Both the position numbers and the translations under genes were made by a program. A DNA stretch of 39,780 nucleotides, taken from NCBI RefSeq assembly GCF_016862635.1, contig NZ_BONI01000083.1, forward strand, positions 1 through 39,780, written 5' to 3'. The DNA is from Catellatospora coxensis (GTDB lineage Bacteria > Actinomycetota > Actinomycetes > Mycobacteriales > Micromonosporaceae). Position 1 is the first letter of the stretch. Each line of letters begins with the position of its first letter. Shown piece by piece: positions 1 through 26,725 of the stretch. The notes under the pieces were generated by a model. The model was not told the DNA's origin and searched no databases. It saw nothing but the letters and a program-made list of their open reading frames with translations.

Positions 1-45
1 GGGCTCGGACATGCCTGCGACGAGCGGAGCGAGGAGCGGGCATGA
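1..45 (+). CDS. Partial copy of 23-codon repeat micro-ORF (3' end only)
   Basis: The window opens inside a copy of the 68-bp coupling repeat. Positions 1-45 read in frame as the last 14 codons plus TGA of the same micro-ORF that follows in full at 42-113. The C-terminal part reads GLGHACDERSEERA. Its TGA (43-45) overlaps the ATG (42-44) of the next copy as ATGA. Bases 1-46 are identical to 69-114, so the two units are a recent tandem duplication. Whether the peptide is made is unknown. Confidence 0.5.
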   Translation, partial: GLGHACDERSEERA

Positions 46-113
46 GCGAGCTTTGCGAGCGAATCAGCGGGCTCGGACATGCCTGCGACGAGCGGAGCGA
101 GGAGCGGGCATGA
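42..113 (+). CDS. 23-codon micro-ORF of the 68-bp coupling repeat, copy 1
   Basis: Open frame of 23 codons beginning MSELCERIS and ending DERSEERA. Its start ATG overlaps the TGA of the preceding partial copy, and its own TGA (111-113) overlaps the ATG of the SGNH hydrolase at 110 (ATGA). The codons for the C-terminal Glu-Glu (GAGGAG) are the purine-rich Shine-Dalgarno stretch in front of that gene. Segment 79-111 can fold with CATGCCTG pairing to CGGGCATG, which hides the hydrolase start. The same design recurs at three other junctions in the window. Function as a coupling leader is inferred. Confidence 0.55.
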   Translation: MSELCERISGLGHACDERSEERA

Positions 114-913
114 GTTCGGTGGCACGGAGGATCGGGAAGGCCGCCGCGATCACGCTCATCGCCGGGACGGTGGGCGGTGCGGCGCTGCTCGCGGCCGAGG
201 CGGTGGTGGCCCGCAGCCGCCGGTACGCCAAGCCGGGGCTGGGCCTCGCGCTGCGCACCACCGTGGGCGCGGACACCGCCGCCCCGCTGCGGCTGGTCAT
301 GCTCGGCGACTCCGCGGCGCTCGGTGTGGGCGTGGACCGGGTCGCCGACACCGTGGGCGGCCAGCTGGCCGCGCTGCTGTCCGGCGGCGAGTCCGGCAAG
401 GGCGGCCCGGTGCAGGCTGTGGCGCTGTCCAGCGTGGGCGTCGCCGGGTCCCGCTCGTCGGACCTGGCCACCCAGGTGGCGCGCTGCCTGCTCGGCGACC
501 GTCCCGACGTCGCGGTGATCCTGGTCGGCGGCAACGACGCGATCACGCTGCGCCGCCCGTCCGACGCGGCGGCGTACCTGGGCGCGGCGGTGCGCCGGCT
601 GCGTGAGGCCGGGGTCGAGGTCGTCGTGGGCACCTGCCCCGACCTGGGCGCGGCCCGCGCCATCGCGCCGCCGCTGCGCCAGGTCGTCGGCTTCCTGGGC
701 CGCCGGGTGGCGCGGGCGCAGGTGCGCGCGGTGCACGCGGCCGGGGGCGCCGTGGTCGACCTGGCCGCCGAGACGGGGCCGGTGTTCCGCGCCGACCCGA
801 ACACGCTGTCGGCCGATCGCTACCACCCTTCCGCGGACGGTTACCGGGTGTGGGCGTACGCCCTGCTCCCGGCCGTCGCCCACGCCGCCGGAGTCACCCC
901 CCGCCTGCCCTGA
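110..913 (+). CDS. SGNH/GDSL-family hydrolase, membrane-anchored or secreted
   Basis: Predicted 267-residue serine esterase or lipase of the SGNH superfamily. Block I is GDS with nucleophile Ser68 in MLGDSAALGVG. Block III is GGND with Asn142. Block V is DRYHPSADGY, with Asp236 and His239 as the catalytic pair. Residues about 8-30 form one hydrophobic segment after VARRIGK, so the protein is probably a signal-anchored extracytoplasmic enzyme. I place the start at ATG 110, not at the in-frame ATG 11, because 11-109 is repeat DNA and ATG 110 has GAGGAG upstream. It is translationally coupled by ATGA to the preceding micro-ORF. The substrate cannot be read from sequence; lipids and acetylated cell-wall glycans are common for the family. 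Confidence 0.85.
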   Translation: MSSVARRIGKAAAITLIAGTVGGAALLAAEAVVARSRRYAKPGLGLALRTTVGADTAAPLRLVMLGDSAALGVGVDRVADTVGGQLAALLSGGESGKGGPVQAVALSSVGVAGSRSSDLATQVARCLLGDRPDVAVILVGGNDAITLRRPSDAAAYLGAAVRRLREAGVEVVVGTCPDLGAARAIAPPLRQVVGFLGRRVARAQVRAVHAAGGAVVDLAAETGPVFRADPNTLSADRYHPSADGYRVWAYALLPAVAHAAGVTPRLP

Positions 914-945
914 CCCGACCCTGCGCGGGCGCGGGCGCGCGTCAA

Positions 946-1019
946 GATCGGCCGACTTGCAGGCAGGTGGGCGTATCTTGAGCGCTCTTTCGCCCACCTG
1001 CCAGGCAAGTCGAACGATC
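946..1019 (+). repeat. 75-bp palindromic intergenic repeat, copy 1 (74 bp here)
   Basis: Imperfect inverted repeat opening GATCGGCCGACTTGC and closing GGCAAGTCGAACGATC, around a non-symmetric core GCGTATCTTG...TTTCGCCCA. The core gives it an orientation (plus here). It shares arms and core with copies at 23092, 30494 and 33601; this copy lacks one base in the left arm. It lies just after the SGNH hydrolase gene. It has no coding potential of its own and could fold as a long hairpin in RNA or as a cruciform. Confidence 0.85.
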
Positions 1020-1082
1020 ATGCGGCGCGGGCGGGGCTGATGACTTTCTCACCCGGTCTGGTGGGGCAAGTTACCGGCGAGT

Positions 1083-1088
1083 TAACGT
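1083..1088 (+). promoter_or_regulatory. -10 box TAACGT for leaderless thiolase mRNA
   Basis: TAACGT ends 6 nt before the ATG at 1095, matching the actinobacterial TANNNT -10 placed so that transcription starts at the start codon. No Shine-Dalgarno sequence is present. Inferred from spacing only. Confidence 0.5.
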
Positions 1089-1094
1089 TCGTTC

Positions 1095-2342
1095 ATGTCA
1101 GATGCTGTCATCGTCGCCACCGCCCGGTCCCCCATCGGCCGGGCCGGCAAGGGCTCCCTGAAGGACCTGCGCGCGGACGACCTCACCGCCACCATCATCC
1201 AGGCCGCCCTGGACAAGATCCCGGGCCTGGACCCGGCCGAGATCGACGATCTCTACCTGGGCTGCGGCCTGCCCGGTGGCGAGCAGGGCTTCAACATGGG
1301 CAAGGTGGTCTCCACCCTGCTGGGCCTCGACTCGCTGCCCGCCGCCACGGTCACCCGGTACTGCGCGTCGTCGCTGCAGACCAGCCGGATGGCGTTCCAC
1401 GCGATCAAGGCCGGCGAGGGCGACGTGTTCATCTCGGCGGGCGTCGAGATGGTCTCGCGCTACGCCCGCGGCAACTCGGACTGGCTGCCCCCGGACGCCG
1501 CCGCGGCCGTCGGCGGGAGCTGGAACAACCCGCGCTTCGAGGCGGCCCAGGCCCGCTCCGCGCAACGCGCCGGGGCCGGGACGCCGGTCTGGACCGACCC
1601 GCGCGAGACCGGCGAGCTGCCCGACATCTACCTGACGATGGGCCAGACCGCCGAGAACCTGGCCCAGGTCCACGGGGTGACCCGCGAGGACATGGACGCT
1701 TTCGGCGTACGGTCGCAGAACCTCGCCGAGCAGGCGATCAGGGACGGCTTCTGGGCCCGCGAGATCACCCCGGTGACCCTGCCCGACGGCACCGTGGTCA
1801 GCCAGGACGACGGCCCCCGCGCCGGAGTGACGCTGGAGGGCACCGCCGGGCTCAAGCCGGTGTTCCGCCCCGACGGCCGGATCACCGCGGGCAACTGCTG
1901 CCCGCTCAACGACGGCGCCGCCGCAGTCGTGATCATGAGCGGTAGCCGGGCCCGCGAGCTGGGCCTCAACCCGCTGGCGCGGATCATCTCCACCGGCGTG
2001 ACCGCGATGAGCCCCGAGATCATGGGCATCGGCCCGGTCGAGGCGACCCGGCAGGCGCTCAAGCGGGCCGGCATGACCATCGACGACATCGACCTGGCCG
2101 AGATCAACGAGGCCTTCGCCGCGCAGGTCATCCCGTCGTACCGGGAGCTGGGCCTGCCGCTGGAGAAGGTGAACGTGATGGGCGGGGCGATCGCCGTCGG
2201 CCACCCGTTCGGCATGACCGGCGCCCGCATCACCGGCACGCTGATCAACAACCTGCAGTGGCACGACAAGAGCATCGGCCTGGAGACCATGTGCGTGGGC
2301 GGCGGCCAGGGCATGGCGATGATCATCGAACGCCTCAGCTGA
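1095..2342 (+). CDS. Acetyl-CoA C-acyltransferase (thiolase)
   Basis: 415-residue thiolase that condenses or cleaves acyl-CoA thioesters (fatty-acid beta-oxidation or acetoacetyl-CoA formation), in the cytosol. The sequence shows both thiolase halves. The nucleophilic Cys90 is in RYCASSLQTSRMA, the NEAF motif is at 338-341, His370 is in GHPFGMTGAR, and the second catalytic Cys400 is in CVGGGQGMAM. The length is typical for the FadA/AtoB family. ATG 1095 directly precedes the canonical N-terminus (DAVIVATARSPIGR) and has a TANNNT box 6 nt upstream, so the message may be leaderless. No partner beta-oxidation gene is adjacent, so degradative versus biosynthetic use cannot be decided. Confidence 0.93.
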   Translation: MSDAVIVATARSPIGRAGKGSLKDLRADDLTATIIQAALDKIPGLDPAEIDDLYLGCGLPGGEQGFNMGKVVSTLLGLDSLPAATVTRYCASSLQTSRMAFHAIKAGEGDVFISAGVEMVSRYARGNSDWLPPDAAAAVGGSWNNPRFEAAQARSAQRAGAGTPVWTDPRETGELPDIYLTMGQTAENLAQVHGVTREDMDAFGVRSQNLAEQAIRDGFWAREITPVTLPDGTVVSQDDGPRAGVTLEGTAGLKPVFRPDGRITAGNCCPLNDGAAAVVIMSGSRARELGLNPLARIISTGVTAMSPEIMGIGPVEATRQALKRAGMTIDDIDLAEINEAFAAQVIPSYRELGLPLEKVNVMGGAIAVGHPFGMTGARITGTLINNLQWHDKSIGLETMCVGGGQGMAMIIERLS

Positions 2343-2357
2343 CCCACCGGCGTAGAG

Positions 2358-2411
2358 CCGTTAAGAAGGGCACCTTCTACAACGCGGAGCGTTGTGAAGG
2401 TGCCCTTCCTT
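2358..2411. repeat. GTTAAGAAGGGCACC hairpin repeat, copy 1 (likely bidirectional terminator)
   Basis: Inverted repeat AAGGGCACCTTC...GAAGGTGCCCTT with an inner ACAACGC/GCGTTGT continuation (one unpaired T). It lies between the convergent thiolase and the minus-strand gene ending at 2415. A second copy with the same outer arms but a different inner loop is at 17491-17545. Its position between converging ends suggests a terminator; recurrence makes it a repeat family. Confidence 0.8.
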
Positions 2412-2414
2412 TGT

Positions 2415-2711
2415 TCAGGTGAGGGTGTGGCGGAGGGCGGCGATCTCCTCGGCTGCGGCTGTGGTGAGTTCGGGCGGCGGGGCGGCGGCGGCGAGGTCGG
2501 CGGCCACGACCTTCAGCTGGTCGGGCAGGGCCAGATCGGACAGCCGGGGCACGTCGCGGCGCGGGGCGCCGGCGAGGTCCGCGGCCTGGTCGGCGAGGCG
2601 CTGGACCAGCTTGTGCACCTGGTCGCCCTGGTCGCGCCAGCGCGCGGGGGTCCAGTGTCCGACCTGGTTGGCCAGGAGGTCGACGGCGCGCGTCAGCTGC
2701 TCGATGCTCAC
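2415..2711 (-). CDS. Hypothetical small protein
   Basis: 98-residue soluble protein without signal peptide or membrane segment. It is predicted largely helical and rich in Ala, Leu and Asp, with a WTPARWRDQGDQVHKLVQRLAD stretch near residues 20-41. GTG 2711 is the only reasonable start. Its stop codon abuts the hairpin repeat at 2358-2411. I do not recognise a family. Codon use (G/C in third positions) fits a real gene and there is no overlapping better candidate. Confidence 0.6.
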   Translation of the reverse strand: MSIEQLTRAVDLLANQVGHWTPARWRDQGDQVHKLVQRLADQAADLAGAPRRDVPRLSDLALPDQLKVVAADLAAAAPPPELTTAAAEEIAALRHTLT

Positions 2712-2777
2712 CCCGCGATTGTCCCGGGCCGGAAAACCGACCGCCGCCCCGGGGCGTCCCCGGAGCGGCGGTGGTCG

Positions 2778-2801
2778 GGTGCGCCCCGTTCGGGGCGCAC
2801 C
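2778..2801 (-). terminator. Hairpin terminator after the Bax-inhibitor-like gene
   Basis: Perfect 10-bp stem GGTGCGCCCC/GGGGCGCACC with loop GTTC, starting 1 nt past the minus-strand stop codon. There is no U-tract, as is usual for high-GC actinobacterial terminators. Confidence 0.6.
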
Positions 2802-2802
2802 G

Positions 2803-3600
2803 TCAGTCTTCCGAGAAGTACGAGATCAGGCGCAGGATCTCCAGGTAGAGCCAGATCAGCTCGACGAGGATGCCGAACGCGCCCAGCCAGCCGTACTTGC
2901 GCGGCAGGCCGGCGGCGATGCCGTCCTCGATCTGCTTGAAGTTGACGACGAACATCAGCGCCGCGACCACGATGCAGACCAGGCTGAAGATGATCGCGAT
3001 GCTGCCGCCGTCACGCAGCGGGCCCGCCGCGCCGGTGATCATGCTGATCACGAAGTTGACCAGGATGACGATGCCCAGACCGGCCGCGGCTCCGATGACC
3101 ACCTTCAGGAACTTCGGGGTGGCCCGCACGATCTTGAACTTGTACAGCGCGGCCATGATGAAGAAGACGCCGAGCGTGGCGACGACCGCCTGCGTGACGA
3201 TGCCCTCGAAGAGGTGGTTGTAGAGCTTGCTCACCACACCGAGGAACACGCCCTCGACCACGGCGTACGAGCTGATCACGATGGGGTTGGTGACCTGGGC
3301 GAACGAGATGACGAGGCCGATCGCCACCCCGACGAACATCGAGGTGTACCAGACCGGCGACAGCACCTCCCACGGCACGACGGCCGCGGAGATCGCCGCG
3401 GAGATCGCCGTCAGCGCGATCAGCGTCACGGTCTTGACGACCACGTCGTCGATGCTCATCCGGTCGACGTGTCCGGACTGGACGACCTCCGGGTAGCCGC
3501 CCGCCGGATAGTCCGCCGGGTAGCCCTGGCCCGGCACCGAGTACCGGGGCTGCTGCGCGGCCGCGCTGATGCGGCTGAGCACCGGGTTGGAACTCTTCAC
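2803..3600 (-). CDS. Bax inhibitor-1/YccA family membrane protein
   Basis: 265-residue polytopic membrane protein. After a Pro/Tyr/Gly-rich cytosolic N-terminus (QPRYSVPGQGYPADYPAGGYP) come about seven hydrophobic segments from residue ~55 to the C-terminus. The C-terminal YGWLGAFGILVELIWLYLEIL and ISYFSED tail are typical of the actinobacterial Bax1-I family. The family is thought to act as ion channels or protease-interacting proteins, but the role in actinobacteria is not established. I chose GTG 3600 (KSSNPVLSR start), which has GGAGG 12 nt upstream; the in-frame ATG 3657 lies in the promoter region. It is followed at once by a hairpin terminator. Confidence 0.88.
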   Translation of the reverse strand: MKSSNPVLSRISAAAQQPRYSVPGQGYPADYPAGGYPEVVQSGHVDRMSIDDVVVKTVTLIALTAISAAISAAVVPWEVLSPVWYTSMFVGVAIGLVISFAQVTNPIVISSYAVVEGVFLGVVSKLYNHLFEGIVTQAVVATLGVFFIMAALYKFKIVRATPKFLKVVIGAAAGLGIVILVNFVISMITGAAGPLRDGGSIAIIFSLVCIVVAALMFVVNFKQIEDGIAAGLPRKYGWLGAFGILVELIWLYLEILRLISYFSED

Positions 3601-3637
3601 AGCGGGTTCTCGCCTCCTCCACAGGGAATGTGCGGAC

Positions 3638-3643
3638 AGAGTA
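3638..3643 (-). promoter_or_regulatory. Candidate -10 TACTCT for the Bax-inhibitor-like gene
   Basis: TACTCT on the minus strand lies about 38 nt upstream of GTG 3600 and ahead of the GGAGG ribosome site. The -35 is not clear. Weak, by pattern only. Confidence 0.3.
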
Positions 3644-4121
3644 GCGGATCGGCGCACCTGCGGAGATCACGATTCTCGCGCCTTCGGCAGGCCGCGGCCA
3701 CGGCCGGCGAACCGCAGGCATGCTCCGTGGTGTCCGAGGTCACCTCGGGCGGGCGGCACTCCCCGGCCGCCAGCGCGCGGATGCGGCCGCGACTGGACCG
3801 GAGCGCCCCGAAGAATTCACCACGCCCGATCCTTAATGAAACCTTATGAAAAGCCTGCGAATTCGCGCCGCGACAGGGGGTCCATCGACCGTTACCGCAC
3901 CTCGTGAAATTCGGAACGAAAAGCAGGCAACCAGGGGGTGACAGACCGTCGGGTGCTCGCTATGCTCGTCCACAACGCGCTCCAATCGCCCGCTTCCCCC
4001 GTGGCAGGCGATCGGAGCGCGTCACTATTTCCGGAGCTTTTCGCCGCGCCATTCGCGCGTTGCCTGCCGGACCGCGGAAAACGCCATTCGACACACCCGC
4101 GGCGACCACCGCACAACCTGC
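3644..4121. other. Non-coding stretch, relatively AT-rich
   Basis: About 480 bases between the Bax-inhibitor promoter and the tRNA gene. It contains locally AT-rich tracts (for example TTAATGAAACCTTATGAAA near 3833-3852). I see no convincing gene: the frames crossing it lack start signals and typical codon bias, and one of them runs through the tRNA. It probably holds the tRNA 3' trailer and divergent or convergent regulatory DNA. Confidence 0.5.
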
Positions 4122-4205: not shown

Positions 4206-4232
4206 GCGTTACGCACGTTGCCGTGCCCTGAC

Positions 4233-4238
4233 ACGGTA
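4233..4238 (-). promoter_or_regulatory. Candidate -10 TACCGT for tRNA-Leu
   Basis: TACCGT on the minus strand lies 27 nt before the mature tRNA 5' end. A GCTTCG about 16 nt further upstream may serve as -35. Pattern only. Confidence 0.3.
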
Positions 4239-4334: not shown

Positions 4335-4341
4335 CAAGCGC

Positions 4342-9555: not shown

Positions 9556-10635
9556 TCAGCCTCGCAGCCCGGTCGACCGGTACGGCGGGTCCAGCAGCTC
9601 GTCCTCTAACTCCGCCAGCCGCCGCCCGGGGGCCGGCTGGCGGCCCGGGGCCGCGGCGTGGCTCGGCAGCGCGCCGCTGACCGGGGCCGGCGTCGCGGCG
9701 AGCACCTCGGCCACCACCGAGACGGGGTCGATGCGCTTGAGCCACATCTCCGGCCGCAGCGTGATCCGGTGCGCCAGCGCGGGCAGCGCGACCGCCTTCA
9801 CGTCCTCCGGGATGACGTAGTCGCGCCCGGCCAGTGCGGCACGGGCCCGGGACAGCAGCAGCAGCGCCAGCGAGCCGCGCGGCGACGAGCCGACCAGCAC
9901 CGCCGGGTGCTCGCGGGTGGCCGCGGCCAGCGACACCAGGTAGCGGCAGATGGAGTCCTCGACCTCGATCTGCTCCAGCCCGGCCTGCATGCGCAGCAGG
10001 GTGGCCGCGTCGACGACCGGCTCGACCTCGGACTCCTCCTGGCGGCGGACCATGCGCCGGCGGAGCACGTTCAGCTCCTCGTCGGCCTCCGGGTAGCCGA
10101 ACGACACGCGCAGCATGAAGCGGTCCAGCTGCGCCTCGGGCAGCGGGTAGGTGCCCTCGTACTCGATCGGGTTGGCGGTGGCCAGCACGTGGAACGGGGC
10201 CTCCAGGCGGTACGTCACGCCCTCGACGGAGACCTGCTTCTCCTGCATCGCCTCCAGCAGCGCCGCCTGCGTCTTCGGCGGCGTGCGGTTGATCTCGTCG
10301 GCGAGCAGCAGGTTCGTGAAGACCGGGCCGGCCCGGAAGGTGAAGTCGTGGGTGCGCTGGTCGTACAGGAACGAGCCGGTCACGTCCGCGGGCAGCAGGT
10401 CGGGGGTGAACTGCAGGCGGCGGAAGTCCAGGCCCAGCGCCTGGGCGAAGGTGCGCGCGGTCAGCGTCTTGCCCAGACCGGGCAGGTCCTCCAGCAGCAC
10501 GTGGCCCCCGGCGAGGATGCCCGCCAGCACCAGCTCCAGCGAATCCCGCTTGCCCACCATCACGGTGCCGACCCGGTCGAGCACCTGCTGGGCGAGACGG
10601 CCCACCTCAGCGGCGGGGATCGGTTGCATGCTCAC
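9556..10635 (-). CDS. moxR: MoxR family AAA+ ATPase
   Basis: 359-residue AAA+ chaperone-like ATPase. Walker A is LPGLGKTLT at ~51-59 and Walker B is LLADEINR at ~110-117. Sensor 1 is ATANP, followed by GTYPLPEAQLDRFMLR, typical of the MoxR branch. Family role: assembly or maturation of a partner protein, here presumably the DUF58 product. The start GTG 10635 overlaps the previous stop as GTGA; ATG 10629 is an alternative. Oddity: Leu343, in the poorly conserved tail (RRLAELEDE), is encoded by TTA (9609-9607). This is the only TTA codon I found among the window's genes, so full translation may depend on the tRNA-Leu(UAA) at 4122-4205. Confidence 0.92.
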   Translation of the reverse strand: MSMQPIPAAEVGRLAQQVLDRVGTVMVGKRDSLELVLAGILAGGHVLLEDLPGLGKTLTARTFAQALGLDFRRLQFTPDLLPADVTGSFLYDQRTHDFTFRAGPVFTNLLLADEINRTPPKTQAALLEAMQEKQVSVEGVTYRLEAPFHVLATANPIEYEGTYPLPEAQLDRFMLRVSFGYPEADEELNVLRRRMVRRQEESEVEPVVDAATLLRMQAGLEQIEVEDSICRYLVSLAAATREHPAVLVGSSPRGSLALLLLSRARAALAGRDYVIPEDVKAVALPALAHRITLRPEMWLKRIDPVSVVAEVLAATPAPVSGALPSHAAAPGRQPAPGRRLAELEDELLDPPYRSTGLRG

Positions 10636-11249
10636 AGTTTCTCCAAGGCATTGACGATCACATCGAGTTCGCGAGGGCTGGGCGGGCGCTTGGCCGGCAC
10701 CGTGAGGAGCGTCCAGAGCGGATCACCGAGCAGCCTACGCGCGCGTTCGGGCTCGGTCGCGCGGTTCACGCCGTGGCGCTGGCGCAGCCGCTCGTCGACC
10801 ACCTCGGCCAGGCGCGGCTGCACCCGGCGCTGGAAGCGGGCGGCGTCGGTGTGGCTCCACTCCAGGATGGTCTCCCAGCGGGCCACCGCCAGCCGCAGGC
10901 CGTCGGTGACCTCGGACTGGTCGTCGGCGACGGCCCGGCCCGCGCGCCGGGGCGGTAGCGGGGCCTTGAGGGAGCGGGCCATCCGCCACACCCCCACCAC
11001 GGTCAGCGCCACCGCGAAGACCAGCGGCAGCGGCATGGTCAGGCTGAACACCTGCAGGGTGAGCCAGCCGGCGGCGGTCCAGGCGATCGCGAAGCCGAGC
11101 AGGCTCAGCCAGCGGGTCGCCTTCGGCCGGGGCGGGCGCGCCGCGACGGGGCCTTCCGGCCGGCTGAACCCGCCGAGCAGGTCACCCAGGGTCGCACCCT
11201 CGTCGACGTCACCGTCCACGTAGTCGTCATGCTCGCTGCGCTCGGTCAT
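10632..11249 (-). CDS. Hypothetical membrane protein of the MoxR operon
   Basis: 205 residues. An acidic N-terminus (MTERSEHDDYVDGDVDEGATLGDLL) precedes two close transmembrane segments near residues 48-85, then a basic, Arg-rich cytosolic domain of ~115 residues ending LDVIVNALEKL. I do not recognise a named domain. It lies between the DUF4129 gene and moxR, joined upstream through the 68-bp coupling repeat and downstream by a GTGA overlap. The first codons (ATG ACC GAG CGC AGC GAG) themselves resemble the start of the repeat micro-ORF, so the N-terminus may derive from a second, partial repeat unit. Confidence 0.75.
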   Translation of the reverse strand: MTERSEHDDYVDGDVDEGATLGDLLGGFSRPEGPVAARPPRPKATRWLSLLGFAIAWTAAGWLTLQVFSLTMPLPLVFAVALTVVGVWRMARSLKAPLPPRRAGRAVADDQSEVTDGLRLAVARWETILEWSHTDAARFQRRVQPRLAEVVDERLRQRHGVNRATEPERARRLLGDPLWTLLTVPAKRPPSPRELDVIVNALEKL

Positions 11250-11317
11250 GCCCCCTCCTCGCTGCGCTCGTCGAGGGCATACCCGGAGCTCATGATTCGC
11301 TCGCGAAGCTCGCTCAT
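11246..11317 (-). CDS. 23-codon micro-ORF of the 68-bp coupling repeat, copy 2
   Basis: Minus-strand frame beginning MSELRERIM and ending DERSEEGA. Its ATG overlaps the TGA of the DUF4129 gene (11314-11316), and its TGA overlaps the ATG at 11249 of the next gene; the start-to-start distance is exactly 68 nt. The 3' half can pair ATGCCCTC with GGGGGCAT (one G-U), burying the downstream start. GAGGAG within the DERSEE codons serves as ribosome site for the downstream gene. Confidence 0.6.
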   Translation of the reverse strand: MSELRERIMSSGYALDERSEEGA

Positions 11318-12018
11318 GCCTTCACCTCACCGCGGGTGGCGGCGGTCAGTTCGTCGCGCAGGCGGTGCAGGGAGGCCCTGGCCTGCAGGCGCATGTCGTC
11401 GTCGACGCGGTGGGTGGCGTAGCGGGCGCGGCGGTACACGTCGGCGAAGCCGTTGAGCACCCCGGCGTCCAGGCGGCGGCGGTGCAGCATGCGTACGACC
11501 AGGTCGGTGGCGGTGTCGTCGGGCAGGCGCGGCACGCCCGCGGCGGCGGCCGCCTGCTCCAGGCGCACCCAGCAGGCGATGACGGCGGTACGCGGATCGG
11601 CGGCGTCGTCGTCGAGGTCGAGCAGGCCCGCGTCCAGTGCCGCGACGACCTCCTCCTCGTCGGTCAGCTGCGCGATGCGCACCGGCGGCTTCTCCCGGAT
11701 GGCCCGGCGGCGGAACTTCGTGGTGGACTTCGCGGCGGCCTTGAGCAGCACCACCAGCACGGCCGCGCCGATGGCGAGGAGCACGACCAGCCCGACGACG
11801 CCCAGCCAGCCGGTGTCGGCGGCCTCCTCCGGCGGCGCGGACGGCGACGGGGTGGGGGTGCGCGGCGACGGCGAGGCGGTCGGGGTGGGGTTCGGCGACG
11901 CGGACTGCTCCGGCGCGGCCCGGCCGATCGGCAGGACCGAGACCGAGGCCGTCGCGGCCGCGAGCATCAGCAGCGCGGCCACGGCCAGCAACGGCCACCA
12001 GCGACGCAACGCTCCCAT
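11314..12018 (-). CDS. DUF4129 domain-containing membrane protein
   Basis: 234 residues. A signal-anchor segment (LLAVAALLMLAAATASVSVL) is followed by an extracytoplasmic Ser/Pro/Thr linker (SASPNPTPTASPSP...) and a second transmembrane segment at ~72-93. The cytosolic C-terminal DUF4129 domain (AVIACWVRLEQAAAAAGVPR ... RRRLDAGVLNGFADVYRRARYATH) follows. DUF4129 proteins co-occur with MoxR and DUF58 in actinobacteria; the molecular role is unknown. ATG 12018 is the first gene of the five-gene operon running to 7627. Confidence 0.85.
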   Translation of the reverse strand: MGALRRWWPLLAVAALLMLAAATASVSVLPIGRAAPEQSASPNPTPTASPSPRTPTPSPSAPPEEAADTGWLGVVGLVVLLAIGAAVLVVLLKAAAKSTTKFRRRAIREKPPVRIAQLTDEEEVVAALDAGLLDLDDDAADPRTAVIACWVRLEQAAAAAGVPRLPDDTATDLVVRMLHRRRLDAGVLNGFADVYRRARYATHRVDDDMRLQARASLHRLRDELTAATRGEVKA

Positions 12019-15071: not shown

Positions 15072-16118
15072 TCACCGGCTGGGGCTCGGCAGCGGTGCGG
15101 GAGTTCCCGACGGGGTGACCGAGGGGGTCACGGCCGGGGACGGGGTGCCCGACGGCGACGGTCCGGCCGACGGGACGCCGGCGGCCGGCGTCTGCCACGG
15201 CAGCGGCTCCGGCGACACCGCCACCCAGGGCAGCTGCGGCGCGGTGAGGTCGGGGCAGGACGGGTAGACGACCCGCCACTCCCAGCCCCGGCCACCTCCG
15301 TTGGGGCCCTCCCAGCCGAAACGCTGCGCGCAGTAGCCGAGCACGATCGGGCTGCCGTCCTGGTCGACCAGGCGCGCGCCCTGGATGATCTGGCCGTCCG
15401 GGCCGAGCACGAAGATGTCGTTGACCTGCTGATACGGGTCGGGTGCCCAGGACGTCGGCGACGACTCCCGCCAGAACGAACCCATCAGGCGGTCGTCCGC
15501 CGCGACCCACAGCCCCAGCCCGAACACCGCCACCACCGCCGTCACCGCGCCCAGCGCCACCCGATCCCGGCGACGGGTGGGCGGAGCCGCCGCGGTGCGC
15601 CGGCCGAGCCAGATCGAGCCGATCACGAACACGGCCAGCACCAGCAGGCCGAGCACGGTGCTGCCCTCGAAGCGCGGCAGCAGGCCCAGCCCGTCGCCGT
15701 CCCGCCACAGCTGCGCCACCAGCATCGCGGCCAGCCAGCCGCGCACGACCCACCAGGCCGGGCGCAGCAGCGCCAGGAACTCGCCGAGGCGCGCGTACCC
15801 GATGACCGGGCCGAGCCGGCGGTCCAGCCCCGACCAGCGCGCCCGCACGCGGGACACGGCCCGCCCGGCCCAGGCGAACGTCCGGCTGGGACCCCCCGTG
15901 TGGCCCAGCGTCGCGCGCAGTTCGGCGGCGTACGCGCTGGGCGGCCCGAGCCGCTCGGTCAGCGTCGCGCCACCGCCCTCGGCCTCGATCTCCGCCGCCA
16001 CCTCGGCCAGGTGCGCCGGCAGGTCCTCGAGCAGGTCGTTGCGTGCCTGCTCGGGCAGATCAGCCAGGGCCGCGCCGACCTGCGCCGCATACTGTGCGAT
16101 CTCGACTTGCTCGCTCAT
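15072..16118 (-). CDS. HAAS-domain membrane protein, partner of PadR
   Basis: 348 residues. The N-terminal ~65 residues (YAAQVGAALADLPEQARNDLLEDLPAHLAEVAAEI ...) form the helical HAAS/DUF1700-type domain that typically partners with PadR regulators. After that come three or four transmembrane segments between ~115 and ~210, an extracytoplasmic domain, and a Ser/Pro/Thr-rich tail (PSPSGTPSPAVTPSVTPSG). The start ATG 16118 is coupled to padR through the 68-bp repeat. HAAS proteins are thought to bind the PadR partner at the membrane and so signal envelope state; that is inference here. Confidence 0.8.
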   Translation of the reverse strand: MSEQVEIAQYAAQVGAALADLPEQARNDLLEDLPAHLAEVAAEIEAEGGGATLTERLGPPSAYAAELRATLGHTGGPSRTFAWAGRAVSRVRARWSGLDRRLGPVIGYARLGEFLALLRPAWWVVRGWLAAMLVAQLWRDGDGLGLLPRFEGSTVLGLLVLAVFVIGSIWLGRRTAAAPPTRRRDRVALGAVTAVVAVFGLGLWVAADDRLMGSFWRESSPTSWAPDPYQQVNDIFVLGPDGQIIQGARLVDQDGSPIVLGYCAQRFGWEGPNGGGRGWEWRVVYPSCPDLTAPQLPWVAVSPEPLPWQTPAAGVPSAGPSPSGTPSPAVTPSVTPSGTPAPLPSPSR

Positions 16119-16186
16119 GCCCTCTCCTCGCTGCGCTCGTCGTCGGCATGACCCAGACTCATGACTCGCTCGTAGAACTCGCTCAT
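16115..16186 (-). CDS. 23-codon micro-ORF of the 68-bp coupling repeat, copy 3
   Basis: Minus-strand frame beginning MSEFYERVM and ending DERSEERA. Its ATG overlaps the padR stop (16183-16185) and its TGA overlaps the ATG of the HAAS gene at 16118, again 68 nt start to start. CATGCC/GGCATG pairing covers the downstream start codon. Confidence 0.6.
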   Translation of the reverse strand: MSEFYERVMSLGHADDERSEERA

Positions 16187-16506
16187 GCCGGCTCCCTCAG
16201 CAGGGTGTTCATCGTGGAGGCGAACTCGCGCCAGACGTCGCCGCCCTGCTTGAGCTGGGTGCGGCCGGCCGGGTTGAGCGCGTAGTACTTGCGGTGCGGG
16301 CCCTCCTCGGAAGGCACCACGTACGTGGTGAGGTAGCCGGCCGCGAACAGCCGGCGCAGGGTGCCGTAGACGGAGGCGTCGCCGATCTCGGTCAGCCCGG
16401 CGGTGCGCAGGCGGCGGAGGATGTCGTACCCGTAGCCGTCGTCGTCGCGCAGCACGGCGAGCACGGCCAGGTCGAGGACCCCCTTGAGCAGTTGGGTGGT
16501 ATCCAC
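16183..16506 (-). CDS. PadR family transcriptional regulator
   Basis: 107-residue winged-helix repressor (MDTTQLLKGVLDLAVLAVL... start). The recognition region is DASVYGTLRRLFAAGYL, and the wing reads VVPSEEGPHRKYYALNPAGR. The protein is almost all DNA-binding domain plus a short C-terminal helix, as in PadR-s2 proteins. I prefer GTG 16506 over GTG 16515 because TACTGT lies 7 nt before it (leaderless pattern). The TACTGTGC direct repeat over the promoter suggests autoregulation. Its product probably responds to the HAAS membrane partner encoded just downstream. Confidence 0.88.
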   Translation of the reverse strand: MDTTQLLKGVLDLAVLAVLRDDDGYGYDILRRLRTAGLTEIGDASVYGTLRRLFAAGYLTTYVVPSEEGPHRKYYALNPAGRTQLKQGGDVWREFASTMNTLLREPA

Positions 16507-16511
16507 GCTCA

Positions 16512-16537
16512 GCACAGTAGTTCGCTATGCACAGTAC
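16512..16537 (-). promoter_or_regulatory. Direct-repeat operator and -10 of padR
   Basis: On the minus strand, TACTGTGC occurs twice, separated by 9 nt (ATAGCGAAC). The downstream copy contains TACTGT, placed 7 nt before GTG 16506 like a leaderless -10, so a regulator bound to the repeat would block RNA polymerase. Autoregulation is inferred. Confidence 0.5.
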
Positions 16538-17476: not shown

Positions 17477-17482
17477 GTCACC

Positions 17483-17488
17483 ACCCTA
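17483..17488 (-). promoter_or_regulatory. -10 box TAGGGT for leaderless ppx mRNA
   Basis: TAGGGT on the minus strand ends 6 nt before GTG 17476. It lies directly beside the hairpin repeat at 17491, so a new transcript can start right after the upstream one is terminated. Confidence 0.5.
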
Positions 17489-17490
17489 CA

Positions 17491-17545
17491 GCCGTTAAGA
17501 AGGGCACCTTCCACTACGTATAACGATGTGAAGGTGCCCTTCCTT
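17491..17545. repeat. GTTAAGAAGGGCACC hairpin repeat, copy 2
   Basis: Outer arms AAGGGCACCTTC/GAAGGTGCCCTT (12 bp) are identical to copy 1 at 2358. The inner part (CACTACGTATAACGATGT) differs and pairs only partly. It abuts the argA stop codon at 17546, as copy 1 abuts the stop of the gene at 2415. Likely a mobile-like repeat used as terminator. Confidence 0.8.
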
Positions 17546-18049
17546 TCACAAGTGGAGGAGCATGCGGGTGTTGCCGAGGGTGTTGGGTTTGACGCGTTCG
17601 AGGCCGAGGAATTCGGCTACGCCTTCGTCGTAGGAGCGGAGGAGCTGCTCGTAGACGGGTGGGGGGACGGGGGCGCCGTCGATCTCGGTGAAGCCGAAGG
17701 AGGCGAAGAAGCGGGTCTCGAAGGTCAGCACGAAGACGCGGCGTACGCCGAGCTCGCGGGCGTCGTCGAGGAGGGCTTCGACGATCTGGTGGCCGACGCG
17801 GCGGCCGCGCCAGGTCGCGTCCACGGCGACGGTGCGGATCTCGGCCAGGTCCTCCCAGAGCACGTGCAGCGCGCCGCAGCCGACGACCGCGCCGTCGTCG
17901 TCGACGGCCACCCGGAACTCCGGCACGTCCTCGTATATCGCGACGGTGGCCTTGCTCAGCAGCCGGCGCTCACCGCTGTAGGTGTCGATCAGGCGGCGGA
18001 TGCCGCGCACGTCGGCGGTGCGGGCCTTGCGTACGGTCAGCTCACTCAA
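17546..18049 (-). CDS. argA: Amino-acid N-acetyltransferase (short N-acetylglutamate synthase)
   Basis: 167-residue GNAT enzyme making N-acetylglutamate from glutamate and acetyl-CoA, the first step of arginine synthesis. The sequence closely follows the mycobacterial stand-alone ArgA pattern: VVGCGALHVLWEDLAEIRTVAVD (~55-77), acetyl-CoA loop WRGRRVGHQIVEALL, VFVLTFETRFFASFGF, and the C-terminal VAEFLGLERVKPNTLGNTRMLL. It lacks the kinase-like domain of classical ArgA. It starts with TTG 18049, overlapping the DUF501 stop by 8 nt, so translation is coupled. No other arg gene is adjacent. Confidence 0.85.
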   Translation of the reverse strand: MSELTVRKARTADVRGIRRLIDTYSGERRLLSKATVAIYEDVPEFRVAVDDDGAVVGCGALHVLWEDLAEIRTVAVDATWRGRRVGHQIVEALLDDARELGVRRVFVLTFETRFFASFGFTEIDGAPVPPPVYEQLLRSYDEGVAEFLGLERVKPNTLGNTRMLLHL

Positions 18050-23065: not shown

Positions 23066-23071
23066 CGCCTC

Positions 23072-23077
23072 AACGTA
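23072..23077 (-). promoter_or_regulatory. -10 box TACGTT for leaderless DUF885 mRNA
   Basis: TACGTT on the minus strand ends 6 nt before ATG 23065; no ribosome-binding site lies between. It lies 14 nt from the 75-bp repeat copy at 23092. Confidence 0.45.
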
Positions 23078-23091
23078 CCCGCCGCCCCCGC

Positions 23092-23166
23092 GATCGCTCG
23101 ACTTGCCAGGCACCTGTGCGTATCTTGACCGCTCTTTCGCCCACTTGCCGGGCAAGTCGGACGATC
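23092..23166 (+). repeat. 75-bp palindromic intergenic repeat, copy 2
   Basis: GATCGCTCGACTTGCC...GGGCAAGTCGGACGATC with core GCGTATCTTGACC. It lies between DUF885 and mazG. The mazG stop codon (23165-23167) overlaps its last bases, so the unit may also act as the mazG terminator. Same orientation as copies 1 and 3. Confidence 0.88.
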
Positions 23167-24100
23167 AAGACCCGTTCGTGACCGTGTCGGCGTAGTGGTG
23201 GAGTTCCTCGCGGAGGGCGGCTTCGGGGTCGGCGCCGGCGCCGGCGGCGGCGACCAGGGCGAGCAGGCGGCCGCCGAGGGTGTCGGACGGCGCGGGTTCG
23301 GGCAGGCCGTGGCGGCGGGCGCGGGAGAGCAGCTTGGCGGCCAGTGTCAGGGAGGGCAGCGACCAGGTCACCCCGTCCAGCGGTGCGCGCTCGCCGCCCT
23401 TCTCCTCGGCCTTGACGCGCTCCCAGGTGGCGATGATCTCCTCGATGTCCTCGGCCGGGGTGTCCGCGAACACGTGCGGGTTGCGGCGGATCATCTTGGC
23501 CACGAAGTCACCGGCCACGTCGTCGACGTTCCAGCGCTCGTCCTCGGGCAGCTCCTGGGCGAGCTGGGCGTGGAACAGCACCTGCAGCAGCACGTCGCCC
23601 ATCTCGTCGCGCACCGCCGCGTGGTCCCCGGCGACGATCGCGTCGTACGCCTCGTACGCCTCTTCCAGCAGGTACTTCGCCAGGGTGCGGTGGGTCTGCT
23701 CGCGCCGCCAGGGATCGCTGCTCTGCAACCGGTCGGTGACCGCCACCGCGTCGAGCAGGCGCGCGCCGGGCGGGTCCCAGGAGCCGTACATCAGCTCCAG
23801 CTCGGCGAGGCCGGGTTCACGGGCCAGCCGCAGGCCGAGTTCGCGGGCGAGGGACTCGTCGCCGCCCGGCCCGGCCAGCCACACGGCCACCGGCTGCGCC
23901 GCGTCGAGCAGCGTCGCCGCGCTCGCGTCCGGGACGACGGCGACCGCCGCGCCTGAGGCACGCAGGGCGGCGGTGTGCTCGTTCTCCGCGCCGGTCAGCA
24001 CCGGATGTGCCCGTACGACGTCCCACGCGGCTGCCGTGAGCAGCCCCGCGGGCATCCGCGGGGACGTGACGAGCAGGATGATCCGGCGGTCAGCCGTCAC
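23165..24100 (-). CDS. mazG: Nucleoside triphosphate pyrophosphohydrolase MazG
   Basis: 311 residues. The MazG helical domain (~130-260) contains LEEAYEAYDAI and the second metal-binding block DEMGDVLLQVLFHAQLA, and IRRNPHVFADTP follows. It cleaves (d)NTPs to NMP and PPi, clearing damaged nucleotides. An N-terminal ~125-residue extension (LLVTSPRMPAGLLTAAAW...) is the Rossmann-like domain usual in actinobacterial MazG. The start GTG 24100 overlaps the preceding stop as GTGA, giving an operon with the SurA-N-like lipoprotein. Confidence 0.92.
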   Translation of the reverse strand: MTADRRIILLVTSPRMPAGLLTAAAWDVVRAHPVLTGAENEHTAALRASGAAVAVVPDASAATLLDAAQPVAVWLAGPGGDESLARELGLRLAREPGLAELELMYGSWDPPGARLLDAVAVTDRLQSSDPWRREQTHRTLAKYLLEEAYEAYDAIVAGDHAAVRDEMGDVLLQVLFHAQLAQELPEDERWNVDDVAGDFVAKMIRRNPHVFADTPAEDIEEIIATWERVKAEEKGGERAPLDGVTWSLPSLTLAAKLLSRARRHGLPEPAPSDTLGGRLLALVAAAGAGADPEAALREELHHYADTVTNGS

Positions 24101-24780
24101 TGCTGAGGCTGGGGCTCGGCGGCCGCGTCCGTCGGGAGCACGCCGTCCTCGACCGCGTCGGCCGGCTGGCCGAGGCCGAGGCTGAGCGCCGGACCCTGGT
24201 TGAAGCTGAGCACGGCGAAGTTCATCGGCCGGTAGCGCGGGTTGACCGAGACGTTCATGGCCTCCGCGGTGTCCTTCAGCACGTTGCGCTTGGCCAGCGC
24301 ATCGCCCAGCTCGCCGCTCTGGGCCAGCTGCGGGGCGACCTTGTCGAAGCTGTTGGCCGGGTCGGCGGCGTTGATCGCGCCGACCGCCACGCCGTTGTCG
24401 TAGACCTCGCGCAGCTCCGCGGGGGTCGGCTGGACGCCCTTGACCGGCAGGTTCTCGCGGCAGTTCTGCAGGCTCTGCTGCAGGCCGGCCAGCGCGGGCT
24501 GGCCCGGCTGGGTCTGCACGGGCGGCAGGGTCGCCTTCAGATCCGCGGCGGCGCGCTTGCAGACCTCGTCGAGCACCAGCAGCTGCACGACCTGGTAGCG
24601 GTCGGGCACGGCCTGCGGATCGATGTTCGGGATCTTCTTGACCTCGTCGATCAGGTCCGTCACCTGCTCCTCGGTGAACGTGGTGTCCCCCGCGTACGCG
24701 GCGACGTTCGGATTCGACCGGCAGGCGGTCAGGGCCAGCAGGGCGACGGCGATGCCGGCCGCGGCGGTCAGACGGCGCAC
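24097..24780 (-). CDS. SurA N-terminal-like lipoprotein (chaperone/foldase-related)
   Basis: 227 residues with signal peptide and lipobox ALTAC (~16-20). The mature part VAAYAGDTTFTEEQVTDLIDEVKKIPNI matches the start of SurA_N/PrsA-type foldases (a short substrate-binding helix set). No parvulin PPIase domain follows, so it is at most a chaperone. The C-terminus is Pro/Gln-rich. GTG 24780 with GGAGG 5 nt upstream is preferred to the longer 24822 start. Location next to mazG and near mfd is conserved in related actinobacteria as far as I recall. Confidence 0.75.
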   Translation of the reverse strand: MRRLTAAAGIAVALLALTACRSNPNVAAYAGDTTFTEEQVTDLIDEVKKIPNIDPQAVPDRYQVVQLLVLDEVCKRAAADLKATLPPVQTQPGQPALAGLQQSLQNCRENLPVKGVQPTPAELREVYDNGVAVGAINAADPANSFDKVAPQLAQSGELGDALAKRNVLKDTAEAMNVSVNPRYRPMNFAVLSFNQGPALSLGLGQPADAVEDGVLPTDAAAEPQPQQ

Positions 24781-24893
24781 GGAATCCTCCAGTGACAGGC
24801 GCTTACGCCGCCACTCTCTCACGAACGGCGACTCCGGGAGATCTCAGGGTGGATTCAGGTGTTCGGAGGGCGCGTAGACCCCCTCCGGCACGG

Positions 24894-24899
24894 CAGAAT
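24894..24899 (+). promoter_or_regulatory. Candidate -10 CAGAAT, leaderless spacing
   Basis: CAGAAT lies 7 nt before GTG 24907. It deviates from TANNNT at the first base, so this is the weakest member of the leaderless set. Confidence 0.3.
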
Positions 24900-24906
24900 T
24901 CCGCCC

Positions 24907-26085
24907 GTGACGACGCAGACGCTTCCTCGTACCACCTCGGGCTGGGTGGGCCTGGCCCGCAGTGGGCCCGACGCAGGCCAGGGCCCCGCGGTGGTCGCCG
25001 CCGTCTACCGGCTCTGGCTGGTCGCCTTCGCGCTGAAGATGCTGGGCTCGACCTGGGACATGTCGTGGCACTTCAAGTGGCTGCGCGACGACGCGGCCCC
25101 GCCGCACCTGCTGAACACCGCGGGTACGGTCATCGTGGTGGCCCTGGTGCTGTTCCAGGCGTACCACAACGTGGGCGTCGACAAGGCCGCGAAGCGTCTG
25201 ATGGTCGGCGGCACGGCGACGTTCCTGATCGCCATCCCGATCGACATCCTGAACCACCGGATCAACGGCCTGGACATCACGGCCTGGAGCGCCAGCCACG
25301 CCCTGCTGTACATCGGCACCGCGTTCATGCTGCTCGGCGTCGCCCGCGGCTACTGGATCTCCACCCCGCCCAGCCGCGCCCGCACCGTGGTCAGCGCCTT
25401 CATCTGGGGCTTCTTCCTGGAGAACGTCCTGTTCCCCAGCCAGCACCAGGAGTACGGCCAGCTCTCCCTGGAGAGCTGGCTGGCGGGCAAGCCCACCGCC
25501 GAGCCGATCCTGCTGCAGTTCGCTGCCGACCAGATCGGCCGCCCGGTCGACAAGATCGCGGTCACGGGCTTCGCGCTCCCGGTCGACTCCTGGGTCTACC
25601 CTGCCTGGATCACCGGCGCGGCGCTGCTGACGCTGGTCGCCGCCCGCGCGATCATCGGCGCGCGTTTCACCGCCACCGCCATCGCCGCCTCCTACGTGGC
25701 ATACCGCCTGGTCATGTGGGGGCTGCTGGCCGGCACGGGCTTCCCGAAGTCCATCCCGCCGCTGCTGCTGCTCGCCGGCGCGATCGCGATCGACATCGTC
25801 TTCCTCGCCTTCGCCGGTTCGCGCGGTAAGAAGTCGCTGATCCCGCAGCAGGCCGGGCCGGAGCGGGTCGCCGTCGCGAAGGGCTCGTCCGGGCTCGGCG
25901 TCGCTCTGGTCGCCGCGGTCTTCGGCGCCGCGGTCGCCACCGCGGCCACCGCGGGTGCGACCTGGCTGCAGGACTTCTTCATCGGCACCCCGCCGATCGA
26001 CTACCCCGCCTTCGGCTACGGCTTCGCCGTCCTCGCCCTCGGCTGGGCGATCATCGCCGTGGTCACCAACCGCCAGCGGGCCTGA
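24907..26085 (+). CDS. Uncharacterised polytopic membrane protein with histidine motifs
   Basis: 392 residues with about nine or ten hydrophobic segments. Conserved-looking blocks at membrane edges carry His, Asp and Trp: STWDMSWHFKWLRDDAAPPHLLNT (~45-68) and NHRINGLDITAWSASHALLY (~113-132). The two blocks echo one another (WD..WH...PPHLL and NH..GLD..WS.SHALL), as expected for an internally repeated metal- or heme-binding unit. I do not know a function. GTG 24907 is chosen, as the upstream ATG 24859 reads through the promoter region. It is divergent from the SurA-N-like gene and convergent with ogt, so it is an island between surA/mazG and mfd. Confidence 0.75.
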   Translation: MTTQTLPRTTSGWVGLARSGPDAGQGPAVVAAVYRLWLVAFALKMLGSTWDMSWHFKWLRDDAAPPHLLNTAGTVIVVALVLFQAYHNVGVDKAAKRLMVGGTATFLIAIPIDILNHRINGLDITAWSASHALLYIGTAFMLLGVARGYWISTPPSRARTVVSAFIWGFFLENVLFPSQHQEYGQLSLESWLAGKPTAEPILLQFAADQIGRPVDKIAVTGFALPVDSWVYPAWITGAALLTLVAARAIIGARFTATAIAASYVAYRLVMWGLLAGTGFPKSIPPLLLLAGAIAIDIVFLAFAGSRGKKSLIPQQAGPERVAVAKGSSGLGVALVAAVFGAAVATAATAGATWLQDFFIGTPPIDYPAFGYGFAVLALGWAIIAVVTNRQRA

Positions 26086-26098
26086 CCCCCCAGCTCGA

Positions 26099-26156
26099 CA
26101 ACTCTTAAAAACGTGCGGCCTCCCCGTCCTGGGAGGCCGCACGTTTTTAAGAGTTG
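26099..26156. terminator. Perfect bidirectional terminator
   Basis: 26-bp perfect inverted repeat with a 6-nt loop CGTCCT. Each arm carries GTGCGGCCTCCC next to a five-A/five-T tract, so both strands give a GC stem flanked by A and U runs. It lies between the convergent membrane-protein and ogt genes. Confidence 0.92.
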
Positions 26157-26174
26157 CGGCGTATGGCGAGCGGG

Positions 26175-26657
26175 TCAGGCGAGCCAGTCGTGTTCCATGC
26201 GGACTCGGGCTTCGAGTTCGAGGAGGTGGCGTTTGGCGGGCAGGCCGCCGCCGAAGCCGACGAGCTTGCCGCCCGCGCCGACCACCCGGTGGCATGGCAC
26301 CACCACGGCGACCGGGTTGCGGTTGCAGGCCACACCGACCGCGCGGGCCGCGTCGGGCTCGCCGACCGCCCGGGCCACCTGGCCATACGTGTGCGTCTCC
26401 CCGTACGGGATGCGGGACAGCTCGGCCCAGACCGCCCGTTCGAAGTCGCTGCCCCGGCGCACCGACACGGGCAGCGTGAACTCCACCAGCTCCCCGGCGA
26501 AGTAGGCGCGCAGCTGCTCGGCGATGTCGTCGAGCAGCGGGTCCACGTCCTGGGCGACCTCCAGCGCCCCGAACTGCACCCCGCACAGCCCGAGGTCGTC
26601 GATCGCGCAGCTCAGCGGCCCGATGGGCGTGTCCACGACGGTCCAGCGGCGACTCAT
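26175..26657 (-). CDS. ogt: Methylated-DNA-[protein]-cysteine S-methyltransferase
   Basis: 160-residue suicide DNA-repair protein that takes the alkyl group from O6-methylguanine. The active-site motif PCHRV is in VVVPCHRVVGAGGKLVGFGGGL (~115-135). The helix-turn-helix precedes it (PYGETHTYGQVARAVGEPDAARAVG), and the Asn hinge GVACNRNP is intact. ATG 26657 is coupled to mfd by the 68-bp repeat, so an alkylation-repair protein is co-expressed with the transcription-coupled repair factor. Confidence 0.95.
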   Translation of the reverse strand: MSRRWTVVDTPIGPLSCAIDDLGLCGVQFGALEVAQDVDPLLDDIAEQLRAYFAGELVEFTLPVSVRRGSDFERAVWAELSRIPYGETHTYGQVARAVGEPDAARAVGVACNRNPVAVVVPCHRVVGAGGKLVGFGGGLPAKRHLLELEARVRMEHDWLA

Positions 26658-26725
26658 GTCCTCTCCTCGCGACGCTCGTCGAGGACATCTGCCAGGTTCA
26701 TGATTCGCTCGCTGCGCTCGCTCAT
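26654..26725 (-). CDS. 23-codon micro-ORF of the 68-bp coupling repeat, copy 4
   Basis: Minus-strand frame beginning MSERSERIM and ending DERREERT. Its ATG overlaps the mfd stop (26722-26724) and its TGA overlaps the ogt ATG at 26657; the start-to-start distance is 68 nt. ATGTCCTC pairs perfectly with GAGGACAT, which contains the first bases of the ogt start codon. Compared with copy 2, the T-A pair is replaced by C-G, a compensatory change. Confidence 0.62.
   Translation of the reverse strand: MSERSERIMNLADVLDERREERT

Follow-up and report, generated by a model that had tools for sequence, protein, structure and literature searches.

A MIRU-like dispersed repeat at gene junctions of Catellatospora coxensis, with a frame-keeping micro-ORF and hairpin covariation at the next start codon

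The stretch of Catellatospora coxensis DNA analyzed here (39,780 nt of NZ_BONI01000083.1, referred to hereafter as the window; it makes up contig C83, or its left end, in a 9.35 Mb genome) carries four full copies of a short repeat, each lying at a gene junction and each holding a micro-open reading frame (micro-ORF). We put at about 0.72 the probability that this is a mobile repeat of the type of the mycobacterial interspersed repetitive units (MIRUs), which would hand ribosomes on to the next gene through its micro-ORF and hold the start codon of that gene in a hairpin. The sequences themselves provide the basis for this reading: a repeat family, its position, filled and empty sites, unbroken frames, and hairpin covariation that includes the start codon.

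Abundance, placement and length of the repeat

All four full units measure 72 nt from ATG to TGA with the frame open, and the start-to-start distance is 68 nt; the coordinates given in the first-pass annotation of this DNA were confirmed throughout, and a fifth copy, cut by the contig end, was found at 1–45. The TGA of the unit overlaps the ATG of the next gene in 4 of 4 units, and the TGA of the upstream gene overlaps the unit ATG in 3 of 3 units whose upstream gene lies inside the window, as had also been described. The genes so joined are unrelated, in agreement with the same annotation (Pfam gives SGNH hydrolase, DUF4129, PadR, HAAS, Mfd and Ogt; the gene after 11246 is without a match). 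Units, predicted hairpins (H1 and H2) and neighboring genes are as follows.

1..45, plus strand: cut tandem unit, final 45 nt only, 100% identical to 69–113 and truncated by the contig end
42..113, plus strand: unit 1, micro-ORF MSELCERISGLGHACDERSEERA*, 72 nt from ATG to TGA, both ends ATGA
46..60, plus strand: predicted hairpin H1 of unit 1, GC-GA-GC-NNN-GC-GA-GC, with two-sided changes; alone not unusually stable
78..112, plus strand: predicted hairpin H2 of unit 1, start codon of the next gene within its 3′ arm, with covariation
110..913, plus strand: gene downstream of unit 1, GDSL/SGNH hydrolase (Pfam PF13472)
10632..11249, minus strand: gene downstream of unit 2, 205 aa, without a Pfam family match
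11246..11317, minus strand: unit 2, micro-ORF MSELRERIMSSGYALDERSEEGA*, junction J2 (5 filled, 6 empty among 11 genomes)
11247..11281, minus strand: predicted hairpin H2 of unit 2
11314..12018, minus strand: gene upstream of unit 2, DUF4129 (Pfam)
15072..16118, minus strand: gene downstream of unit 3, HAAS domain (Pfam)
16115..16186, minus strand: unit 3, micro-ORF MSEFYERVMSLGHADDERSEERA*, junction J3 (5 filled, 6 empty among 11 genomes)
16116..16150, minus strand: predicted hairpin H2 of unit 3
16183..16515, minus strand: gene upstream of unit 3, PadR-like (Pfam)
26175..26657, minus strand: gene downstream of unit 4, O6-methylguanine-DNA methyltransferase, Ogt (Pfam)
26654..26725, minus strand: unit 4, micro-ORF MSERSERIMNLADVLDERREERT*, junction J4 (4 filled, 7 empty among 11 genomes)
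26655..26689, minus strand: predicted hairpin H2 of unit 4, stem version GTCC/GGAC
26722..30408, minus strand: gene upstream of unit 4, Mfd (TRCF; Pfam)

BLAST with unit 1 returned 52 matches in the window's genome, tandem arrays among them. A sequence-only model (R1), built from an alignment (A1) of 37 of 42 units that omitted two identical copies, the near-identical tandem copy L033, the frameshifted L010:5637 and the 76-nt L029, returned 120 matches in the same genome at E ≤ 0.01, partial copies counted; these two counts exclude a chance origin. Ten other genomes of the genus gave 31, 8, at least 104, at least 124, 23, 83, 26, 9, 8 and at least 123 model matches, the high values being possibly minimum values since about 121 candidates were scored per genome (counts across the order are limited likewise). 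A pattern scan across named genomes yielded 57 stretches, every one from Catellatospora (four species); as the pattern fixes the conserved blocks, these 57 loci inflate block conservation in mixed sets. At E ≤ 0.001 the model matched in 22 of 41 genomes (the window's genome counted) and, order-wide, in 81 of 200 genomes and 32 of 61 genera (its own included), weak single matches among these being possibly due to chance. ORFs in the other genera are mostly 75–84 nt long and have the same ends. A nested ORF was found in 23 of 30 such loci, some doubtful (L259, L262), and because this search targeted such ORFs directly, their multiple-of-three lengths are no test. One genus, g4 (probably Micromonospora), furnished a set of 40 loci from 12 genomes, chosen among full-length rows.

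An identical unit array occupies two contig ends, window 1–113 and L009:2574–2693 (the right end of contig C7); C7 and C83 are probably neighbors, with the assembly broken at the array.

In 112 of the 119 near-full units, unit and micro-ORF finish at the same base. The 119 are followed by another unit (17), by an ORF that spans at least 60 codons or runs off the locus (97), or by a short ORF (5). On the upstream side, 102 of these units have no unit before them, and 74 close a frame of at least 60 codons, 25 close a shorter one and 3 are without DTGA; the upstream overlap, which the first-pass annotation described for the window, is thus not universal beyond it. Control ATGAs from the same loci close an upstream frame of at least 60 codons in 600 of 2,553 cases and open one in 1,413 of 2,553 (55%). 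As random ATGAs open 60 codons this often, ORF length was dropped as proof of unit position, and we relied on orthology and Pfam. Of 39 sites in the window's genome, 37 lead into an ORF no shorter than 142 codons; the other two are a site truncated by a contig end and the broken L029. A further 20 matches in that genome comprise 22 units, of which 19 open at least 131 codons at their DTGA end (L287, one of these, being in frame with its downstream ORF), two lead into a further unit and one, L290, is fused.

Lengths are largely compatible with the reading frame: of the 106 units that start with ATGA and end with DTGA, 102 have a length divisible by three (72 nt in 59 units, 75 nt in 42, 78 nt in one), the exceptions measuring 73 (twice), 74 and 76 nt, and all 45 full units of g4 are multiples of three, with the micro-ORF intact in 44. 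The 68-bp length proposed for the unit is correct in the window; elsewhere the unit measures 68, 71 or 74 nt in Catellatospora and mostly 71–80 nt in other genera, with shorter and longer derivatives. The repeat is real, frequent and frame-neutral, and is placed at start codons.

Filled and empty orthologous junctions

Seven junctions were read across genomes: J2, J3 and J4 from the window, K1 in L028, and K2, K3 and K4 in L010, in 11, 11, 11, 11, 6, 11 and 6 genomes, respectively. Among the resulting 67 genome–junction instances, 28 are filled, 34 are empty with a direct stop/start overlap (ATGA, GTGA or TGATG), and 5 have neither insert nor overlap, namely K1 in G002, G005, G007, G008 and G009. 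The K1 insert is present in the window's genome only (1 of 11). J3, between the PadR and HAAS genes, is occupied by a single unit in G000, G003 and G006, by two units in G004 and by a unit with a 30-nt remnant in G010; the other six genomes have no insert there. At K3, G000 has three units and G003 a 51-nt micro-ORF plus a unit, five genomes are empty, and micro-ORFs of 48 nt (G001, G006) or 141 nt (G002, G007) hold little unit sequence (L191, L192, L196, L197). Copy number at a single locus therefore varies, with 0, 1 or 2 units at J3 and three in a row at K3.

In 28 of 28 filled instances the chain of micro-ORFs runs unbroken from the upstream stop into the frame of the gene, linked by DTGA or TGATG. 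These chains contain 34 micro-ORFs of 12 lengths between 30 and 141 nt, and 14 of the 34 are neither 72 nor 75 nt long. By this comparison the reading frame outlasts the unit sequence at filled junctions, and the repeat is, as judged from orthologous sites, an insertion at start codons with translational linkage kept. The ends of the inserted DNA are ambiguous owing to the shared ATGA and, at K1, to altered bases nearby. The earlier proposal of a cassette able to enter operon junctions and leave coupling intact was thus borne out, insofar as linkage can be read from sequence, by the empty sites with a plain overlap and by the frame-keeping lengths (102 of 106), and its corollary, that loss of the unit would leave a plain overlap, agrees with the 34 of 67 orthologous instances that are empty in exactly this way.

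Unit-like sequence was also seen within genes. Units at L287, L290 and L010:6847–7953 form N-termini that continue in frame into the downstream ORF. At K4, species differ in unit-like residues of the N-terminus (MSEHRERISGRIV in the window's own genome), and ERSEEQA-like tails are found at the C-terminal end of some upstream proteins.

Hairpins and covariation with the start codon

The predicted hairpin H1 (GC-GA-GC-NNN-GC-GA-GC) leaves its NNN free, these bases falling on codon positions 2 and 3 and then on position 1 of the next codon. H2 (CAUGCC..C-GA-C-GA-GC-GNA-GC-GA-G-GAG..GGCAUG(A)) would hold the downstream start codon in its 3′ arm, preceded by GAGGAG. With no structure given, mutual information across 128 unique units (out of 146 rows, gappy rows removed) places the adjacent H2 pairs 37–63, 36–64 and 38–62 at ranks 2, 4 and 9 of all column pairs. 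With the structure given, two-sided changes occur in 6 of 12 pairs, a number that none of 500 shuffles attained, and slid controls gave at most 2. Other compensations are found in these helices in g4; for instance, 4 of 44 units have C-G in place of G-C at the loop-closing stem, and 4 have U-A in place of C-G in H1.

The start codon itself takes part in this covariation. In the Catellatospora set, its partner is C in 10 of 16 units with a GTG start versus 7 of 129 with an ATG start (p = 1.4e-7; this and the following p-values ignore the kinship of copies), ATG going with T; the corresponding counts are 3 of 4 versus 0 of 39 in g4 (p = 3e-4) and 4 of 6 versus 2 of 17 in other genera (p = 0.02; 24 of the 30 loci used, six weak loci omitted). 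Given these compensatory changes, it is the nucleic acid that we read as conserved, in the form of two hairpins of which H2 pairs with the next start codon. The start-codon covariation is, on these counts, the strongest evidence for the hairpins and the new point relative to the known MIRU principle.

Predicted openness of the start codon is 0.29 at units versus 0.42 at 52 control overlaps (p = 0.006), and H2 is stabler than mononucleotide shuffles (median z −1.75). The idea that the hairpin masks the whole ribosome site was rejected, the Shine–Dalgarno region being predicted to be more open than at the 52 controls. At Rfam gathering scores the window holds one tRNA only, and the unit corresponds to no known RNA family.

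A proposed translational hand-over, its alternatives and its relatives

We propose that a short unit inserts at a start codon, usually within an ATGA stop/start overlap, and would leave one ATGA on each side, the frame from the left ATGA remaining stop-free up to the right ATGA. A ribosome ending the upstream gene would restart, read the micro-ORF (typically 23–27 codons), stop at the right-hand ATGA and begin again on the gene that follows. The H2 arm, in the 3′ half of the unit, would enclose the downstream start with the Shine–Dalgarno-like GAGGAG just 5′ of it, and the start may for this reason be best opened by a ribosome arriving via the micro-ORF. The unit would be moved by an activity supplied in trans; the filled/empty pattern and the copy numbers argue for movement. 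Translation of the micro-ORF, restart, action of the hairpin as RNA and movement in trans are what we consider most likely.

Several observations weigh against this proposal. About a quarter of the first units lack a long upstream frame, units are fused into genes at 2 of the 20 further sites (L287, L290), and others are broken (L029, L113, L234). J3 is empty in G001 although the flank tree groups G001 with filled genomes, so that loss or repeated gains are needed, and at K1 five near relatives have TGATG rather than ATGA. With regard to the hairpins, column pairs that do not pair are also high in mutual information (ranks 1, 3 and 5–8), the outermost H2 pair is formed in just 20 of 37 units, and the inner H2 pair −32/−6 is kept in just 20 of 43 units in g4 and 6 of 23 in other genera. 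Closure of the start codon is only modest, the Shine–Dalgarno region is more open (0.587 versus 0.437 in controls), six of the seven whole units tested are no stabler than their dinucleotide shuffles, and H1 does not exceed mononucleotide shuffles (median z −0.24). No transposase could be linked to the repeat in a search that covered Y1 (PF01797) only: the family is found in 6 of 11 genomes (the G000 copy has an internal stop, and G010 has two partial copies), with none matching in G002, G005, G006, G008 and G009.

Two candidate sources of movement were discarded. An origin of the RAYT/REP type is at odds with the absence of Y1 from G006 (83 matches) and its two partial copies in G010 (at least 123 matches); carriage by phage was set aside after the strict unit pattern gave 0 exact matches in viral_contigs, looser patterns not being tried.

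In a rather unlikely alternative, the element acts at the level of DNA, its hairpins being recognized as folded single strands by a transposase or by replication, while frames survive selection and coupling is tolerated rather than aided. Hairpins of the GC-NNN-GC and GNA-loop kinds that contain tandem GA steps would be expected to fold as DNA too, and the range of copy numbers in the genus (8–124) together with the tandem arrays would fit such spread. However, no matching transposase was found (Y1_Tnp alone being searched, present in 6 of 11 genomes and not in G006), the stem covaries with the start codon, and the K3 inserts with little remaining unit sequence still hold a micro-ORF chain. 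Less probable again is the notion that each unit is a selected, attenuator-like coupler that tunes its downstream gene and is kept for that benefit: a hairpin at the start codon and frames maintained across species would suit it, but the same junction alternates between filled and empty in close species, and the 20 proteins tested at junctions have no evident common function.

A functional micropeptide of about 23 residues produced from many junctions, which the first-pass annotation had taken to be the conserved entity, is very improbable. The micro-ORF does stop exactly at the unit end in the 112 of 119 near-full units, its end residues are similar, and the variable middle of the window genome's own 72-nt units shows slightly raised variability at third codon positions (entropy by codon position 1.11/1.00/1.43). 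No such excess is present, however, in the middle of 75-nt units (1.11/0.95/1.09) or in the conserved blocks of the window genome's own 72-nt units (0.37/0.49/0.41), and the middle of the peptide is altered by compensated frameshifts. Three Catellatospora units, among the 91 of 113 that could be parsed, balance an indel in the first loop by a change in their variable middle, and the 44 unique g4 units, 25 with a 3-nt and 19 with a 4-nt first loop, are rebalanced in 44 of 44 cases, yielding MSERSERI.. versus MSERQRANH..-type peptides. At L021 a change from GCC..GCA to GGC..CCA keeps the pairing yet is non-synonymous on both sides, and orthologous junctions carry micro-ORFs of 9–46 residues. Because of the compensated frameshifts and the lack of third-position excess in the conserved blocks, the peptide is in our reading not what is kept, and is incidental. 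An ordinary GC-rich repeat unconnected to gene ends can be dismissed, for although 1,413 of 2,553 control ATGAs open at least 60 codons and ORF position accordingly proves little, the orthology of filled and empty sites at seven junctions excludes it, as do Pfam-confirmed neighbors, the 19 of 22 units at 20 further sites that open at least 131 codons, and the like geometry in other genera.

The proposed mobile, ribosome-transferring repeat has a close counterpart in the MIRUs, which were reportedly described by Supply et al. in 1997 and are inserted at DTGA. A 2025 review presents mycobacterial MIRUs as apparently mobile, inserted at start codons and carrying an internal ORF coupled at −4 nt, with a likely minimal impact on genes (PMC12548453); the kind of element for which the first-pass annotation knew of no name thus already has one in mycobacteria. 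In further sources, the senX3-regX3 MIRU has units of 77 and 53 bp and is confined to M. leprae and the M. tuberculosis complex (PMC4213456), and MIRUs occupy 41 locations in M. tuberculosis (PMC2734929); together these papers describe short operon-junction repeats with copy-number variation (PMC12548453, PMC2734929, PMC4213456, PMC9392950). The likeness extends to length, 77 + 4 and 53 + 4 being multiples of three as are the lengths of the Catellatospora units. Against the description of a short interspersed repeat of ~40–100 bp, we find units of 68, 71 or 74 nt with 120 matches in the genome; the internal ORF overlaps its neighbors downstream in 112 of 119 units and upstream in 74 of 102, with 28 of 28 junctions linked; start-codon insertion is matched by empty sites in relatives (34 of 67), and copy number varies at a locus (0, 1 or 2 units at J3, three at K3). 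The Catellatospora repeat differs in taxon, occurring outside the mycobacteria with model matches in as many as 31 further genera of its order, and in its start-codon hairpin pairing, indicated by covariation, which the MIRU passages compared do not mention. We therefore call it MIRU-like in working principle, a comparison made by description rather than by sequence. A PPE search matched in none of six f4 genomes, in both f8 genomes and weakly in G165 of f15; repeat-model matches in the PPE-bearing genomes G083 and G044 offer a lead only for homology with MIRUs.

Other systems are more distant. REP/BIME elements with RAYT (Y1) transposases are short, hairpin-forming, dispersed and non-autonomous, as is the Catellatospora repeat, and lie in untranslated spacers; the latter lies at stop/start overlaps with frames kept, and Y1 transposases do not track its copies. 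Rickettsia palindromic elements are small repeats inserted inside genes with the reading frame left open, whereas the units described here lie between genes, fusions being seen at 2 of 20 further sites (L287, L290). In termination–reinitiation or bicistronic designs, a short leading ORF brings the ribosome to a coupled start (PMC12548453); the short ORF in Catellatospora differs in being a dispersed, spreading repeat. Among the open-licence titles and abstract openings listed, no prior report of this repeat family appeared.

The working principle itself is already known, and the present repeat extends a kind known from mycobacteria to further genera of the order. Natural pairs of filled and empty junctions in a genus of soil-type actinomycetes make coupling, micro-ORF hand-over and start-codon hairpins directly measurable, and suggest a route by which a mobile element may enter operons without polarity. 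A broader idea, to which we give slightly less than even odds, is an order-wide superfamily of portable translational couplers, mobile units that would have evolved to go unnoticed by operons, each with a frame-neutral micro-ORF and a hairpin locked on the start; mycobacterial MIRUs would be one branch of it, and the units would also be a source of new N- and C-terminal extensions of proteins. Annotators of these genomes should be aware that tiny ORFs, and N-termini of the MSERSER type, can be repeat-derived.

Other repeats lie nearby. A second dispersed family of ~87 nt occurs at 933–1019, 23080–23166, 30482–30568 and 33589–33675, with inverted matches too; a 68-nt repeat at 2345–2412 and 17479–17546 (84% identity) appears by eye to be palindromic and terminator-like. 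The Ogt region contains a ~60-nt repeat (26096–26160) with matches on both strands at many places in the genus, a separate ~90-nt repeat at L028:6200–6297 has many matches, including in G000, G001, G004 and G008, and a tandem repeat of 24 nt spans 39415–39651.

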